Shown here: positions 36,288-43,375 of the stretch, piece by piece
Numbering within the stretch: the stretch's first letter is position 1
Layout: each line of letters begins with the position of its first letter
Source of the DNA: a virus
Virus record (IMG/VR): IMGVR_UViG_3300009130_000055
Span: 1-43,375 of that record
Reading direction: 5' to 3' (one strand)
DNA: 43,375 nt
Program-made: the position numbers and the translations under genes
Notes under the pieces: model-generated
What the model saw: only the letters and a program-made list of their open reading frames with translations
Databases searched by the model: none
What the model was told of the DNA's origin: nothing

Positions 36288-38129
36288 TTATTTTCCGCTG
36301 TATTGAGAGTATCTTGGTACACTTCCAGTAAATATTACATTTACTGCGCATAAATTATCAGGAACTATTCCGTCTTCATACCTTACTCCATTACGGTCTT
36401 CAAATCCACCTCTTATAATAGGTAATTCTTTATTACCAATGACTATATCACCAAATTCATCTAATCCTAAATTAGGATCAGTACCTTCTGGTACTATAAT
36501 TTTTTCTTCTGTAGTAATATCAGTGCTTAAACTTGCTTCTGATATTGGAGAATTAGTATTATTTCTTAGTTGATTTAGTAAAATTTCACTAGTAGATTTA
36601 TTATTATAAGTAACATTCTTGAAGTAATATCCATTTTTAATAGCATCTTCATTTTCTTTACTGATGAAATTCATGGAAATACTATCTACACCTTCAACTT
36701 CTTCTATGATTTTTACTAAATCAGATTTAGGTATTTTATCTCTTCTGGTTACTTCTAGGAAATATTTTCCTACCTTATCTATGATTTCTTCTCGGATAAC
36801 TTCTTCACTTACAATATCATCAAATACTCTAACGAATATATTGGTAGCATAATAAGTTATTACTGGATCTACTATTTGCATCTCAGCAGATATAAATTGA
36901 GAACCAGATTTATTAACAGCAGTATGAACAGCTTCTTTAGTATCTTCGTCGATAAAGAAATTATTTATATCTGTAGTAAAATAATCACTATTAGAACTTA
37001 CTTTTCTAGTAATATCAGGTGTCAAAAATACATACACTATATTATCATCATCAAGATATTCATCGCCATAAGTATTATATGCATATATAAATCTAAATTG
37101 ATTGTATCTTCTTAAGAAATGTACATAATTGACTGGATTAGCAAGAACTAGTGCTCTACTATTCTTATTTAGTAAAAATCTAGTTAAATCAGTATTTTCG
37201 CCATCTGATCCTAATGTAATTTTCTTAGTAATACGAATATCAAAAATTTCGTTTAGATCTACTACTTGACCATCACCTAATGTTACTTCGTCGTCGAAAG
37301 TAAAATTAATTTCGTTTTCAGATATTCCTATGTTACCACTAGAACCTTGTGTATTTATGTATTCTACTTTTATAGTTTGTCCAATATCTGGAATATATCC
37401 ATAATCTTCATTACCAAAATAAATATCAACTTGACCATTGATACCAGTTTTGATCATGACTCCTTTATCACCTTTATTCATTTCATAAAGAGATTCATAT
37501 GAAGTATATTCTTCACCATTTACATATACTTTAACAGTATCATTTTCTATAATCTGAGTTCTTTCATCTATAGTAAATGACTGTAAAGGGGTTCCATCTG
37601 ATCTAAATTCTTTTTCAGAAGTTAGACCCTGTATAACATTAAAGTAAATAAAATCTTGGCTTGTCTTAGGTATTAAGATATTATCTGCGTCTATAGTAAT
37701 TAAGTAAGTTAAGCTATTATTTTCACAAACTAGCTTTGTCAAGTTATTAAGTTGTATGCTTGGTCCATTAATTAAATTAGCTGCACCTGCTTTTAGCTTA
37801 AGGCTAATTTCACCTTTAGCACTTATTGCTCTGTATGGATTATGACCAGTTAATCTAGCTAATCCTCTTATGCTTTTTTGTTTATATGCAGTTTCTAAAT
37901 TTCTTTCATTTAACGCATCTTCTAAATAGAAATATTGTAGCTTATTAAGTTCTTGGAGAACACTAAGAATTTGGCCGTATGGGCTTGCTTCGCCAAAGTT
38001 CTGTTCTCTTTTAGCATATTCCTTTACTAGAAAATTCTCAACTTGGTTCTTAAGTTCATCGTTCTGTATTAACGTTTTCTCAAGTAATGAATTAATTTTT
38101 TGACTGCTTTTACTATTAGTATTAGGCAT
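36288..38129 (-). CDS. 6: Baseplate wedge subunit, T4 gp6 / baseplate J family
   Basis: This 613-aa protein starts MPNTNSKSSQKINSLLEKTL. It carries NIRGxx-type J-protein features: GQVDIYFGNEDYGYIPDIGQ followed by TIKVEYINTQGSSGNIG (residues about 230-275), and later DKIPKSDLVKIIEEVEGVDS and FISKENEDAI. Gp6 (baseplate J in P2) forms the ring of the baseplate wedge and changes shape during sheath contraction. The length is close to T4 gp6 (660 aa). The gene follows gp25 after 14 bases, the order seen in many contractile systems (gp25-like then J-like). The call is good on motif plus context. Confidence 0.8.
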   Translation of the reverse strand: MPNTNSKSSQKINSLLEKTLIQNDELKNQVENFLVKEYAKREQNFGEASPYGQILSVLQELNKLQYFYLEDALNERNLETAYKQKSIRGLARLTGHNPYRAISAKGEISLKLKAGAANLINGPSIQLNNLTKLVCENNSLTYLITIDADNILIPKTSQDFIYFNVIQGLTSEKEFRSDGTPLQSFTIDERTQIIENDTVKVYVNGEEYTSYESLYEMNKGDKGVMIKTGINGQVDIYFGNEDYGYIPDIGQTIKVEYINTQGSSGNIGISENEINFTFDDEVTLGDGQVVDLNEIFDIRITKKITLGSDGENTDLTRFLLNKNSRALVLANPVNYVHFLRRYNQFRFIYAYNTYGDEYLDDDNIVYVFLTPDITRKVSSNSDYFTTDINNFFIDEDTKEAVHTAVNKSGSQFISAEMQIVDPVITYYATNIFVRVFDDIVSEEVIREEIIDKVGKYFLEVTRRDKIPKSDLVKIIEEVEGVDSISMNFISKENEDAIKNGYYFKNVTYNNKSTSEILLNQLRNNTNSPISEASLSTDITTEEKIIVPEGTDPNLGLDEFGDIVIGNKELPIIRGGFEDRNGVRYEDGIVPDNLCAVNVIFTGSVPRYSQYSGK

Positions 38130-38143
38130 TGCTCATGATTTTT

Positions 38144-38509
38144 TTAGTTTAATACGATTCTTACTAAGTTTCCTTCGTCAACTAAAACATCAACTACTGC
38201 TGTTTCACTTTGACCTACTTTATAAAATTGCACTTTTACTTCAAAGCTATACTCAGAAGAATATTTACTATATTGTGATATTTGTTGGTTTATTCTAGCT
38301 ACCATATCACTTTCATTTGTTGCTATAGAATGTAAGTACATATCAAGTGATGCACCAAATTTAGGTGAACCTAGTACACTTGTCATTGGAGTAGAAAGAA
38401 TCATTTCTATTTCTTGTAGAAATATTTCTAAAGAATCCGTGATTTCTATAGTGTTTTCGCTATAGCTTTTAGTATAAGCCTTTCTTATATAAATTTCTGA
38501 TTGTCCCAC
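38144..38509 (-). CDS. 25: Baseplate wedge gp25-like protein
   Basis: This 121-aa protein starts MGQSEIYIRKAYTKSYSENT and has IFLQEIEMILSTPMTSVLGS followed by PKFGASLDMYLHS. The FG-x-x-L segment after a conserved Pro is the core signature of gp25/GpW-type wedge proteins (T4 gp25: PEFGCDLSDQLFENM). The later strand (SFEVKVQFYKVGQSETAVVD) matches the two-strand end of the family. Gp25 connects the baseplate to the first sheath ring and helps trigger contraction. Length is close to T4 gp25 (132 aa). It lies just upstream of gp6 and downstream of the gp13-like gene. Confidence 0.85.
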   Translation of the reverse strand: MGQSEIYIRKAYTKSYSENTIEITDSLEIFLQEIEMILSTPMTSVLGSPKFGASLDMYLHSIATNESDMVARINQQISQYSKYSSEYSFEVKVQFYKVGQSETAVVDVLVDEGNLVRIVLN

Positions 38510-38561: not shown

Positions 38562-39326
38562 TTATTGCCCGTTAGTAGTATAGAAGAAATCATTAGAGTT
38601 CATGCTTCTAACTTCTTCTTTAACATCATCTACCATTTCTTTTCCATTTTCATACCATCTTGAGTAATCAATACTTGCTCCACCTGGAAGCTCCATCTCA
38701 AATGCACCTAATATCATACCTAGTTGCATGTATGAATTTCCTAGAACATAGTGATAAAAAAGATCTAGCTCATATAAAGCTTCCAGTGGAATTTCTATCA
38801 TAACATCCATAATAAGATCTGGATTGTCTTTAACTTCGCCTTTAATGAAAAAGCGTTTAGTATTAGGGTTAAAATTATAAGTAAGAGGGTGCTTGGTAAC
38901 ATGATATAATAAATCATCCCAAGATGCATAAACTACATAAGCAAGAACTGCATCAGAATACATAGCATCTCCGACGTCTCTTCCACCACCTACACCAAAG
39001 TTACCATAAATGTACTGGTCTAATGTGAAATCTGATTGTCCGTTACTTCTATTCATGAATTGGTTATTTTTAGTAACAGCATTTACAGAATACACGCATT
39101 CTGGTAAAATAACTCCTCTATTAGCTTTAAATGTTTTAGACTCAAAATATTGCTCTGATGGTACTAAAATATAGATATTCTCCAAAGCAAATTCATAATT
39201 TCTATAAAACCACTTAGCTGCATATTTAGTAATTCTTTCTATTTCTTTAGTTGGAATCTTAAATGGTATTGCACAGCTTGCAGATATAGCATCTATAATT
39301 GAAGCATTAAAATCGTCTTTAGTCAT
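38562..39326 (-). CDS. 13: Neck protein, T4 gp13-like
   Basis: This 254-aa protein has an N-terminal helical part (IERITKYAAKWFYRNYEFAL) and ILPECVYSVNAV. The C-terminal half ends YMQLGMILGAFEMELPGGAS followed by IDYSRWYENGKEMVDDVKEE and VRSMNSNDFFY. This matches the end of T4 gp13 ([20 protein letters not shown] then [20 protein letters not shown]), including the LPGG-x-x-ID hallmark. Gp13 seals the packaged head and connects it to the tail via gp14. It is somewhat shorter than T4 gp13 (309 aa). It overlaps the amidoligase-like gene by one base at 39326 and is close to gp25. Confidence 0.7.
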   Translation of the reverse strand: MTKDDFNASIIDAISASCAIPFKIPTKEIERITKYAAKWFYRNYEFALENIYILVPSEQYFESKTFKANRGVILPECVYSVNAVTKNNQFMNRSNGQSDFTLDQYIYGNFGVGGGRDVGDAMYSDAVLAYVVYASWDDLLYHVTKHPLTYNFNPNTKRFFIKGEVKDNPDLIMDVMIEIPLEALYELDLFYHYVLGNSYMQLGMILGAFEMELPGGASIDYSRWYENGKEMVDDVKEEVRSMNSNDFFYTTNGQ

Positions 39327-40633
39327 TATTTCTTATTTGTTTTAATTTCTTCAGCGTCAATAATCTCCACTGATTCGTCTATATCACAGTACTGGTGTTT
39401 ACCTTCTCTGAATATAGTTTTATTTTTGATTTCAGATCTTTCTATTAATATAAGTTTACCATTAATATAAGAATTCTTGATTATGTCACCCGAATGATAA
39501 CCATCTTTAAGTCTGCATTTATAGAGTGTAGATCCATAAGTATCGCTATTTGTAAAATCGCACTCAGATAAATATGAAAATTTGACATCTACATTTTCTA
39601 TAAGACATTGTCTAATATTACTATCATATATCACCATGCTAATGTCATCTAGAATAGTATCTCTTAGTTTAAAACCTTTTAGCTCAATCGTGTTATTATC
39701 AGTATCAAAATTAATAATTCCTTTCATAGAATAATCAAGTTTTTCCATTTTTACTAGCATAGGAAAAATTCTATCCATGATTTTCGTAAAGAAAGATTTT
39801 ACATGTTGCTCATCATCCTTTGTGTCTACTAATAATTTTATACCTCTAAATACATTAGTAAATGAGAAAAAATCTCTTTTTGCTTTAAATAATAAATTTT
39901 TAGATGATATAATATCTTTAAGCTTAGTAACATGTTCTTTAGTATATGGTTTAACTTGAGCATTAACTAAAGAATCTATGAAATGATCTAGTAAAAGTAA
40001 ACATTCACTAGATTTAGCAGCATAATTTTTACCACCGATATATCTAAATTCTAAATAGTCATTTGCAAGTTTCATGAAATTTATTCCATAGTACTTTGTG
40101 CTAGGATAGATATAGTTTGATGCTTGTAGCATAGGCTCATCAAAATTAAAATGAGTATGCACAGGGTAAATAGCTTTTATACTTCTTGCATAGATATTTG
40201 TTTCTCTTTCAGGGAAAAGCTCATACACATACTGCTCATCGAAATCTAGTATAAATTTAAGTAAATCAATATGAGTAATATATGGATCTGGCATATTAAC
40301 GTTAACATGCAATCCGCATCGATGAGTAAGAAAAAGGTTAGGATGACTATTGATATAATCAAGCATTCCTACAAGCACATGCTTTGCTTGTATGTATGGC
40401 ATAGGCGGTGTAACTACTTCTACTAAGTTTTTACCACCAGAAAAATCTGGTTCCATTTTCCAATGTCCTTCCACTGGAACAAAATCAGAATGCGCTTTTT
40501 TCTCTAATGAAATATCTACTTTAAATAATCTCATTAGCTCTTTCTTAACAGTGCTATTATTAATATTAGTATCTCTAATAAACTCAAACTCAAAGCCAAT
40601 CTCAGATCTATATCTTTCTTTAGTTATATCCAT
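39326..40633 (-). CDS. Amidoligase-like protein with pentapeptide-like C-terminus
   Basis: This 435-aa protein starts MDITKERYRSEIGFEFEFIR. The early EIGFEFEF (E11, E15, E17), KMEPDFSGG, LVEVVTPP and later THRCGLHVNV (H109, N111) form the signature of amidoligase/COOH-NH2 ligase-type enzymes (glutamine synthetase-like fold, ATP-dependent peptide or amide bond formation). Near residues 335-385 the repeat-like CLIENVDVKFSYLSECDFTN and SDTYGSTLYKCRLKDGYH resemble pentapeptide repeats, which often mimic DNA. The substrate is unknown; in other phages such ligases are suspected of modifying virion or host molecules. No separate ATP-grasp partner is visible beside it. Stop overlaps the gp13-like ATG; a terminator lies upstream. 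Confidence 0.7.
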   Translation of the reverse strand: MDITKERYRSEIGFEFEFIRDTNINNSTVKKELMRLFKVDISLEKKAHSDFVPVEGHWKMEPDFSGGKNLVEVVTPPMPYIQAKHVLVGMLDYINSHPNLFLTHRCGLHVNVNMPDPYITHIDLLKFILDFDEQYVYELFPERETNIYARSIKAIYPVHTHFNFDEPMLQASNYIYPSTKYYGINFMKLANDYLEFRYIGGKNYAAKSSECLLLLDHFIDSLVNAQVKPYTKEHVTKLKDIISSKNLLFKAKRDFFSFTNVFRGIKLLVDTKDDEQHVKSFFTKIMDRIFPMLVKMEKLDYSMKGIINFDTDNNTIELKGFKLRDTILDDISMVIYDSNIRQCLIENVDVKFSYLSECDFTNSDTYGSTLYKCRLKDGYHSGDIIKNSYINGKLILIERSEIKNKTIFREGKHQYCDIDESVEIIDAEEIKTNKK

Positions 40634-40662
40634 GAATATGAAGTATTTAGAATATTTAATCT

Positions 40663-40690
40663 AAAAAAAGGTCAGGAAAAATTCCTGACC
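40663..40690 (-). terminator. Rho-independent terminator upstream of amidoligase gene
   Basis: A perfect 9-bp stem GGTCAGGAA/TTCCTGACC (40670-40678/40682-40690) has a 3-base loop. On the minus strand a run of seven T (40669-40663) follows. It lies after the deoxyribosyltransferase-like gene (stop 40742). A second, imperfect hairpin, AGGGGTTTAACACCT (40725-40711 on the minus strand), stands just before it. The amidoligase gene must therefore start from its own promoter or readthrough. Confidence 0.9.
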
Positions 40691-40741
40691 CTTTTAGCAT
40701 TCCGAACATTGAGGTGTTAAACCCCTATGTAGTATATATTG

Positions 40742-41200
40742 CTAGATATAAGTTTCTAGTTCATTATGTAGTGCTTGCTGGAACGCATAGAAATCATTAT
40801 ATAGATCTATTCCATATCTTTCACAAACAATATCTACGTTCCCTTCTCTATAAAATTCTTTAGGGCAATAGCAAACTACGTTTTTGTCTTTAAAAAGACC
40901 TAGTTCTAATAAACTAATTGGTGATTTTGAATCTGGTCCAAAATACATCACGATCAAATCAGCCTTTTCTAAACAGCTTAATTCCCATGTAACTTGGTGA
41001 TTAAATTGTTTGTTTTCTTTTCTTTGTACCCATGATGAATCCCAATCATCTCTTCTTGGGTTGAATACGTCAACATCATAGTTCTCAAAAATTGTAGTTA
41101 GTTTTGCTTGCCAATCTTCAGAATTACCCATGTCAATAGTACCTGCTAAGAAGATACTATTAACTTTTTGGACTTTATCAGTAGGTTTAAATACTCTCAT
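40742..41200 (-). CDS. Nucleoside 2-deoxyribosyltransferase-like enzyme
   Basis: This 152-aa protein has SIFLAGTIDMGNSEDWQ (residues 15-31), VFNPRRDDWDSSW (45-57), TWELSCLEKADLIVMYFGP (71-89) and SPISLLELGLF (93-103). These are the successive signatures of the nucleoside 2-deoxyribosyltransferase-like superfamily: a nucleotide-binding FxAGxI loop, NPRR-DW and the S-x-x-x-LELG helix. Glu99 in SLLELG is in the position of the catalytic Glu in this family (inference). Such enzymes exchange or hydrolyse bases on deoxynucleosides, or cleave deoxynucleotides. A role in nucleotide supply or host nucleotide signalling is open. The gene overlaps the S1-like gene's stop by one base. Confidence 0.75.
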   Translation of the reverse strand: MRVFKPTDKVQKVNSIFLAGTIDMGNSEDWQAKLTTIFENYDVDVFNPRRDDWDSSWVQRKENKQFNHQVTWELSCLEKADLIVMYFGPDSKSPISLLELGLFKDKNVVCYCPKEFYREGNVDIVCERYGIDLYNDFYAFQQALHNELETYI

Positions 41201-42336
41201 TATTTAGCAAGTTTAAGATCATACTTATCGTCATTGATATTAGTTATTTTACAACTAACTTTCTGACCTTTAGTTAAAGTAATATCTTTTAGCTTAGAAA
41301 TATGAATTAGACCGCTAGTATTCACAGCAAATTTAACAAATACTCCGAAATTAGTAATAGCAGTAACTTTTCCGTTTACTACATCACCTCTTTTATATTC
41401 TTTTTTAACTGGCTCGCTTTTTTCTACTTCGTTTCTAGATAAGATGATTCTCTTATTAGTAACAACTTCTTTTAAGTAGAAAGCAATTTCAACTCCTGGT
41501 TGAAGAGCACCTTCGTTATAATGACCAGCAAGAACTTCATCGAATTCATCTTTATGAATAAGACCAGTTAATACAGAAGGCCCGTTCTCATCTGCTTTAA
41601 ATTCAACGAATACTCCGTACTTATTAGTACCAGTGATTACACCAGAATATTCGTTACCGATGATAAGTTTATCAACTTCAGCAGGGATTAAAGTCTCTAA
41701 ATAATCTCTATGAGAAACAATTAATGTATCTCTAAATTTAGAGTATTTGTTATTGTTCTTTATAGCCATAACTTTGATAGTTTCTCCAACTAATTCTTCA
41801 AAGTTAGTTAATTTGTTAATTCCTCCTAACGAACCTGGCATGAACACAGGAAGTCCTCCAATGTTTAAGTCATAGCCATTATTTGATAGACCAACAACCT
41901 TGGCATCATAAGTAGTTTTAGATTTATAATCAGCCATGTCATCATATAAATCTTTTTTGATTTTTCCAGTAATAGAAGCTCTTAAGCACTCAGAAGCTTC
42001 TGTAATAACTACATCAATAGTTTCCCCTACAGAATAATTAGCAGGATCTAATTTCTCTTTATCTAGTGAAATATAAGCATATTCTTTACCGCTTATGTCA
42101 AGAGCAATTTCGCTGTTAGTAATAGATGAGATTTTACCTGAAACAACATCTCCAGGATTTAAAGAAAAGTTAAGTGATACAGTAGAGTTTTCAAAGTACT
42201 CTTCGTATACCTTTAATAAGTCATTTGCGTATGATTCTTTAGAAAGGATTTTTAAACCAGATTTGCTTACGATTTCTTGTTCTTCGTCAAAAACTGATAA
42301 GTTTGTAGGATCACCTACAGTAGCATAAGTTGCCAT
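41200..42336 (-). CDS. Multi-domain S1-like RNA-binding protein
   Basis: This 378-aa protein has four S1-type OB domains: about 61-125 (NPGDVVSGKISSITNSEIAL), 139-212 (YDAKVVGLSNNGYDLNIGGL), 223-300 (GNEYSGVITGTNKYGVFVEF) and 312-378 (RGDVVNGKVTAITNFGVFVK with SGLIHISKL). The last two are the most canonical. Domain order and character resemble ribosomal protein S1, which binds mRNA leaders, but it is shorter than the six-domain S1. Phage-encoded S1-like proteins are uncommon. Because this phage uses A-rich leaders without Shine-Dalgarno, it could help recruit its mRNAs to ribosomes, or partner a phage RNase as host S1 does for T4 RegB. No signal or membrane segment. Confidence 0.8.
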   Translation of the reverse strand: MATYATVGDPTNLSVFDEEQEIVSKSGLKILSKESYANDLLKVYEEYFENSTVSLNFSLNPGDVVSGKISSITNSEIALDISGKEYAYISLDKEKLDPANYSVGETIDVVITEASECLRASITGKIKKDLYDDMADYKSKTTYDAKVVGLSNNGYDLNIGGLPVFMPGSLGGINKLTNFEELVGETIKVMAIKNNNKYSKFRDTLIVSHRDYLETLIPAEVDKLIIGNEYSGVITGTNKYGVFVEFKADENGPSVLTGLIHKDEFDEVLAGHYNEGALQPGVEIAFYLKEVVTNKRIILSRNEVEKSEPVKKEYKRGDVVNGKVTAITNFGVFVKFAVNTSGLIHISKLKDITLTKGQKVSCKITNINDDKYDLKLAK

Positions 42337-42375: not shown

Positions 42376-42403
42376 AGAAAAAAAGGGGCATACTATACCC
42401 CTT
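42376..42403 (-). terminator. Rho-independent terminator after the 130-aa gene
   Basis: A stem built around AAGGGG/CCCCTT (42383-42388/42398-42403), extended inward with one mismatch, is followed on the minus strand by a run of seven T (42384-42378). It lies 6 bases after the stop of the 130-aa leader gene and 40 bases before the S1-like start, giving the S1-like and deoxyribosyltransferase-like pair its own unit. Confidence 0.85.
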
Positions 42404-42409
42404 CATGAA

Positions 42410-42802
42410 TTATTTCTTCATTTTCTTTATAGCCCAAGAAATTTCTTGTGCTAAATAATTTTGCATTTCTTTTCTGATATTATCTTGTTTTACTCCTTTT
42501 TCAATATCATAACGTTCTTCTTGCATAAGAGAATAAAAAGCAGTAGTATCCATAGTAACTGTATTCTTTTCATCATCTAGGTCATAAAAATCGAAATATA
42601 TTTGGATATAATCACTTGTATCATTTGGGTTTCTTGCGATAATTTCTACCTCAGTAGTGCCTTTATTACCAAAACTATTACCAGCTCCGTTAATTTCAAT
42701 GTTCTTATATGGCGAACCTTTCCATTTAAACATAGGCTCAATCCATTTCTTGTGGTTTGTGCTAAACTTTAATTTTTCTGTAATATATTGTAATGATTTC
42801 AT
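42410..42802 (-). CDS. Leader-bearing small hypothetical protein
   Basis: This 130-aa protein starts MKSLQYITEKLKFSTNHKKW; ITE at residues 7-9 fits the leader of the 3.8-7.3 kb group, although the gene is 35 kb away. The body is small and alpha-beta (KGTTEVEIIARNPNDTSDYI then QIYFDFYDL), with a helical, basic end (AQEISWAIKKMKK). No family is recognised. The dispersed position argues that the leader is a functional tag rather than a product of local tandem duplication. It stands between an unidentified protein gene and a terminator. Confidence 0.6.
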   Translation of the reverse strand: MKSLQYITEKLKFSTNHKKWIEPMFKWKGSPYKNIEINGAGNSFGNKGTTEVEIIARNPNDTSDYIQIYFDFYDLDDEKNTVTMDTTAFYSLMQEERYDIEKGVKQDNIRKEMQNYLAQEISWAIKKMKK

Positions 42803-42828
42803 TATAGTTTTTATTCTTTTATTATTTA

Positions 42829-43365
42829 TTAGAGCAATGTTATACCACTCCCTGGTACTACAATTGGCACTGGTGGTGCACTAGTAGAAGTACCAATGTA
42901 ATTATATGATATTGTTTTAGCATGGTTAACAAACATGTTATTGAAAGAATTTACTATATTATCATAAGTAGCTTCTTTATCACCTTCTGGTACACTTGGT
43001 AAAGCAGGTGTGCCTGGTGGAGTACTTGCTAAAACTACTCCTGAATTAACCAGAGACATTCCAGGTGCTGGAATTGCAGGCGGTGTTATTTTTAATGTAG
43101 CAGTTGCCCATGTAGCAATCAAAGAAGCTTCTATTAAAGAAAATTGTAAATTTTGTTCTGTGTTAAATGCTAAGTCAAACTGCGATTCTATTCCTTTCTC
43201 TAATATGCTGAAGTCGGGTACAGTCCACTTATTCCCGTATTGATCTAATGCAGATTTTACAGAAGTTTCATAAGCAGAAACTATATCTTTTATAACTTCT
43301 TCCTTAGTAGCTTCGCTTTTTACTGCATTTTTAAAAACTTTTTCTATATCTGTTTTTAGTGGCAT
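42829..43365 (-). CDS. Hypothetical protein, possibly structural
   Basis: This 178-aa protein starts MPLKTDIEKVFKNAVKSEAT with a helical N-terminus, then a hydrophobic Ala/Thr segment (IEASLIATWATATLKI) and Pro/Gly-rich stretches (PPAIPAPGMSLVNSGVVLAS and TPPGTPALPSVPEGD). It ends with PPVPIVVPGSGITLL. The hydrophobic and Pro/Gly-rich pattern recalls small virion proteins of T4-like phages. I cannot name a family. The gene starts 10 bases from the window edge, preceded by an A/T-rich leader (AAAAAATATG), so the start appears complete. Any promoter lies outside the window. Confidence 0.55.
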   Translation of the reverse strand: MPLKTDIEKVFKNAVKSEATKEEVIKDIVSAYETSVKSALDQYGNKWTVPDFSILEKGIESQFDLAFNTEQNLQFSLIEASLIATWATATLKITPPAIPAPGMSLVNSGVVLASTPPGTPALPSVPEGDKEATYDNIVNSFNNMFVNHAKTISYNYIGTSTSAPPVPIVVPGSGITLL

Positions 43366-43375
43366 ATTTTTTATA

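Follow-up and report, generated by a model that had tools for sequence, protein, structure and literature searches.

The window, by which we mean the whole 43,375-base IMG/VR record analysed here, encodes a phage protein that is homologous to the ribosomal protein bS1, keeps four of its domains together with residues involved in ribosome docking and RNA binding, evolves under purifying selection, and belongs to a family of S1 proteins restricted to viruses. In our view the best explanation, to which we assign a probability of about 0.58, is that this phage bS1 docks on the 30S subunit of the host. Domain 1 and the helix preceding it would bind uS2 at the site normally used by bS1, and domains 3 and 4 would bind an A-rich stretch upstream of phage start codons. 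The protein would be produced from its own transcription unit among late structural genes, and would replace or supplement host bS1 so as to favour translation of phage mRNA late in infection, a timing that we read from gene position only.

The S1-like protein, its family and its source

A preliminary description of this DNA had proposed that four S1 OB domains are combined in one phage protein, and this was borne out by NCBIfam, PDB, AlphaFold2 and Foldseek, according to which the protein is collinear with bS1 domains 1-4, starting from domain 1. The features of the gene are as follows:

41200..42336, minus strand: phage bS1-like protein, 378 aa, four OB/S1 domains, pI 5.2, ATG start (sequence and fold)
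42190..42234, minus strand: N-terminal helix, residues 35-49, with L40/Y44 aligned to E. coli bS1 Phe5/Phe9, the uS2 anchor (AlphaFold2 helix, alignment, PMC10123108)
41974..42147, minus strand: OB1, residues 64-121, with K84 aligned to E. coli Lys43 (alignment and model)
41713..41913, minus strand: OB2, residues 142-208, with the virus-family signature FMPGSLGGIN (motif and model)
41437..41652, minus strand: OB3, residues 229-300, with the RNA-binding pattern Y240/F243/H261 (pattern and model)
41209..41382, minus strand: OB4, residues 319-376, with the RNA-binding pattern F330/F333/H345 (pattern and model)

NCBIfam S1 models cover residues 40-376 (best E 8.4e-35), residues 46-350 align with PDB bS1 chains, best of all with E. 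coli bS1 (2.1e-22), and the best matches in a viral library bear the names S1 motif or 30S ribosomal protein S1. The cut-offs of the NCBIfam rpsA equivalogs are missed (104.9 bits vs 577 for TIGR00717, and 95.1 vs 368 for PRK06676), and Pfam PF00575 alone gives a good score over two stretches only, so that domains 1-2 are degenerate. The AlphaFold2 model, built from an alignment of 43 viral sequences, has a pLDDT of 81.8 and a pTM of 0.55, and shows helix 35-49 followed by four OB barrels, whose placement relative to one another is unreliable (TM 0.36), as expected of a flexible string of domains. In Foldseek the model finds its top PDB match in the bS1 chain of an mRNA-delivery complex of the E. 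coli 30S subunit (9gut, 3.5e-22, 378 columns).

The window protein carries the motif FMP(G/N)(S/T)(L/M)(A/G)(G/A)xN, and when IMG/VR was scanned with an alignment of nine members, 134 stretches with the motif were obtained, 106 of which encode relatives, many of them on contigs of 100-500 kb; 80 loci were kept. On the cellular side, the same alignment returned a single relative in 84,980 species genomes, located on a 3.4-kb MAG contig and grouping with a Lak member in the tree. That tree comprises 48 viral and 12 cellular proteins; those from viruses, the window's included, fall in a single clade (SH-aLRT 100) separate from the sampled cellular bS1, three of which are from Bacteroidota. All viral members were recruited via one motif, a route by which phage S1 genes that arose independently, that of PhiMa05 for instance (PMC13157829), would escape notice. 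Database matches labelled as phage under MT83xxxx and Acinetobacter MD-2021a either are or resemble bacterial bS1, and served only as cellular references. Judged by sequence, the window protein is a member of a virus-specific S1 family and hence of a known kind; the suggestion that a four-domain S1 protein is uncommon in phages holds relative to all phages, not within this family, whose members occur in at least 106 viral contigs. A second S1-domain protein, a long open frame of 601-646 aa, is present elsewhere in the genomes LR756504, LR745206 and LR756502.

The window also contains T4-like genes for a gp32-like SSB, a primase, endonuclease VII, a tail tube, and gp6-, gp25- and gp13-like proteins, and no tRNA genes were found in its 43 kb. 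Cellular contamination was considered and ruled out, because the neighbours of the S1 gene are T4-like phage genes. For two large structural genes the nearest named records are huge phage LR756500, the Lak phages, Tenacibaculum PTm1/PTm5/pT24, Flavobacterium MaF61, Chryseobacterium MA9V and Sphingomonas PAU, from which we infer that the host is likely to belong to the Bacteroidota. The source is thus most likely a large T4-like phage of a Bacteroidota bacterium.

Docking and RNA-binding residues

Phe5, Phe9 and Lys43 are among the residues through which E. coli bS1 contacts uS2 (PMC10123108). In our alignment, the window protein has the same residues as Bacteroidota bS1 where E. coli has Phe9 and Lys43, namely Y44 and K84: a tyrosine stands in the Phe9 column of all three sampled Bacteroidota bS1 and of 39 of 49 viral proteins, and the Lys43 column holds a lysine or arginine in 33 of the 49. 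An N-terminal DF(N/D)W motif occurs in many relatives, in several viral clades and in the Bacteroidota bS1 sampled, is missing from the other bS1 sampled, and is degenerate in the window member. The aromatic/histidine pattern for RNA binding is present in both domains 3 and 4 of the window protein (Y240, F243, H261 and F330, F333, H345, respectively), and across 43 viral proteins it is nearly invariant in domain 3 (F/Y in 41, F in all 43, H in 41) and weaker in domain 4 (F/Y in 43, F in 15, H in 30). The S1 gene is under strong purifying selection (omega 0.05), its value of 0.046 between the window and the related locus L001 being the lowest among six neighbouring genes compared. Against docking we count the change to asparagine of Lys117 in the mRNA pocket of E. 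coli domain 2, the likewise altered Phe79 (both by alignment), the absence of the anchor lysine from about a third of the phage S1 family, and the baseplate and neck genes that adjoin S1 in many relatives.

The RNA-binding pattern kept in domains 3 and 4, and the partial loss of anchor residues in some clades, would also be compatible with a protein that works off the ribosome, coating AT-rich phage RNA for protection from nucleases or as an aid to transcription, with host bS1 kept in place. We consider this unlikely, as the protein retains domains 1-2 and the anchor helix, the parts with which bS1 docks on the ribosome, and lines up with bS1 over its entire length.

Leaders, gene neighbourhood and partners

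As the preliminary description had stated, the leaders of the window are A-rich and lack a Shine-Dalgarno (SD) sequence: the motif (AGGA/GGAG/GAGG) is found in 0.04 of 28 leaders vs 0.06 +/- 0.04 upon shuffling, and the proportion of A is 0.58, whereas the identical script run on T4 as a control finds the motif in 0.56 of 45 leaders vs 0.09 by shuffling. That such leaders point to the phage S1, however, did not hold up. No S1-domain match was found in the whole genomes of PTm1, MaF61, MA9V-1 and PAU, a comparison set of three phages isolated on Bacteroidota plus PAU, and in 50-kb segments of these four related phages the SD motif stands at 0.02-0.05, which is chance level. An A-rich box near -12 is found whether S1 is present or absent, and the leaders therefore reflect the host ribosome; a sign of selectivity in their sequence is absent. 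A distinct leader type in S1-bearing phages was considered and rejected, given that their A-box peak, at -11 to -15, has wide bootstrap ranges overlapping that of the S1-less phages (-12), and the shift is not significant. The 88 S1-bearing loci form five groups, in four of which the SD motif does not exceed chance, whereas in the small Lak group (49 leaders) it reaches 0.10 vs 0.06; no clearly SD-using S1-bearing locus was seen among the loci examined. Al-Shayeb et al. had already described phage S1 proteins in 2020, along with an association with genomes that lack SD sequences (PMC7162821), which the preliminary description thus found anew. Based on the sequences compared here, this association is confounded by host lineage, and the correlation alone is no argument for a part of phage S1 in SD-less initiation.

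Because phage and host leaders are apparently of one type, A-rich and SD-less, a block of bS1 would be expected to harm phage genes as well. This argues against a dominant-negative bS1 that displaces the host protein and shuts off host translation with no help to phage mRNA, a reading that the missing domains 5-6 and the changed Lys117 of the domain 2 pocket would otherwise suit. Position in a late-gene region also speaks against early shut-off, and bS1 with fewer than six domains is normal in some bacteria, the 381-aa Listeria rpsA among our references being one example; overall we find this reading quite improbable.

The surroundings of the S1 gene in the window are as follows:

42382..42404, minus strand: terminator-like hairpin and T run directly upstream of S1, then an AT-rich promoter-like stretch (-12.9 kcal/mol, z -3.2)
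40742..41200, minus strand: nucleoside 2-deoxyribosyltransferase-like gene, overlapping the S1 stop by one base (TAATG); L001 is arranged likewise
40661..40697, minus strand: terminator-like hairpin and T run after the S1-deoxyribosyltransferase pair (-18.5 kcal/mol, z -3.9)
39326..40633, minus strand: amidoligase-fold protein, C-terminal part repeat-rich
38562..39326, minus strand: T4 gp13-like neck protein
38144..38509, minus strand: gp25-like baseplate wedge protein
36288..38129, minus strand: gp6-like baseplate wedge protein

In another locus, L002, the deoxyribosyltransferase-like gene is missing between S1 and the amidoligase-like gene. The S1 gene is 94% identical to that of L001 and conservation falls sharply directly upstream of it, where two genes (130 and 178 aa; 42410-43374, minus strand) show 43% and 37% identity to L001. 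An amidoligase-fold gene lies at +1 to +4 from S1 in 54 of the 88 loci, often followed by gp13-, gp25- and gp6-like genes, and a gp5-like gene precedes S1 in 27 loci; 30 loci have instead a small gene with a UvrB/C-like motif (recognised by eye), usually immediately before S1, and most of these also carry a homologue of the window's 1551-aa gene near S1. Catalytic-type motifs of the amidoligase are present in the window, but have degenerated in many relatives where the gene still lies close to S1. Of six S1-bearing huge-phage records, five contain the gene, and four S1-less relatives lack it. We rejected the idea that S1 and the amidoligase form a modifying-enzyme pair in view of these degenerate motifs and of other S1-bearing phages in which the gene is elsewhere or absent. 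With its motif decay and variable location, the amidoligase gene resembles a lineage marker or a structural protein.

A terminator-like hairpin follows S1 in 25 of 47 loci vs 28 of 472 other genes (Fisher p 1e-15, nominal since the loci are related), so that S1 would usually be a separate transcription unit or the end of one; a scan for sigma-70 promoters gave results at or below chance. OB folds occur in phage baseplates, and the conserved neighbourhood of gp5-, gp13-, gp25- and gp6-like genes might accordingly suggest that S1 forms part of the baseplate or neck of the virion. Its usually separate transcription unit, however, favours a non-virion role, its sequence and fold match bS1 and not baseplate OB proteins, and its RNA-binding and anchor residues are conserved. 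S1 is moreover missing from related phages that have the neighbouring baseplate or neck genes, and in Lak-B2 it adjoins a sliding-clamp-like gene instead (identified by eye). A place in the virion is, in our opinion, quite improbable. It is scarcely credible that the protein is the cofactor of a RegB-like ribonuclease, as the preliminary description had envisaged from the precedent of host S1 and RegB, known in T4 only, since RegB was not detected above cut-off in ten S1-bearing records, most of them of 400-735 kb and including the window's relative G001, with T4 as positive control at 1e-69. An unrelated nuclease might still be its partner.

A search for bS21 found it in 7 of 10 S1-bearing records, the ten including a 172-kb fragment, vs none of five S1-less ones, T4 included, these being few and related genomes. 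Both proteins occur together in LR756504, LR745206, LR756501, LR756502 and the IMG/VR contigs of loci L037, L044 and L069, and bS21 was not found in a close relative of the window, a 172-kb contig of unestablished completeness. Co-occurrence of bS1 and bS21 in phages is suggestive. The earlier idea that the phage S1 recruits mRNA or competes with host S1 fits the anchor and RNA-binding residues, the purifying selection, and the presence of bS21 in many S1-bearing genomes.

Significance and comparison with known systems

In Bacteroidota ribosomes the anti-SD is sequestered (PMC9976891) and SD sequences are not used (PMC9976891, PMC6847099), which leaves start-codon choice in these bacteria an open question. 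An A is preferred at positions -12 and -13, the presumed point of contact between bS1 domain 4 and the message, and binding of bS1 to the A-rich box at about -12 has been proposed, with a direct test still lacking (PMC6847099). A bS1 that is made by a phage and retains the docking residues would lend itself well to the study of start-codon choice. More tentatively, these phages might bring along a substitute set of proteins for the side of the Bacteroidota ribosome at which mRNA exits, composed of bS1 and in many genomes bS21, that retunes start-site choice to the advantage of phage mRNAs; we see this broader idea as possible and still rather doubtful.

Among known systems, the possible rpS1 proteins of LR756500-LR756504 and LR745206 belong to the same family and clade as the window protein, with 28-37% identity. 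These accessions we take to be the records of the 2020 huge-phage study. By comparison, the window holds an independent member on a 43-kb fragment, located between baseplate genes, and the SD correlation of that study (PMC7162821) was here compared with S1-less relatives and fails to discriminate. Cellular Bacteroidota bS1 resembles the window protein in having domains 1-4 in order and the tyrosine and lysine of the uS2 anchor, and has the DF(N/D)W motif in common with many phage members, although not with the window member. It differs in having six domains (PMC6705787) where the phage protein has four, and FLPGS where the phage family has FMPGS, with the phage members in a viral clade of their own. 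The jumbo phage PhiMa05 likewise encodes a bS1, which is reported to have been acquired, along with five further ribosomal proteins, from a Vampirovibrio-like host (PMC13157829), a likeness drawn from its description and not from sequence. What would be new in our proposal is a selective choice of start sites on ribosomes that are blind to SD sequences.
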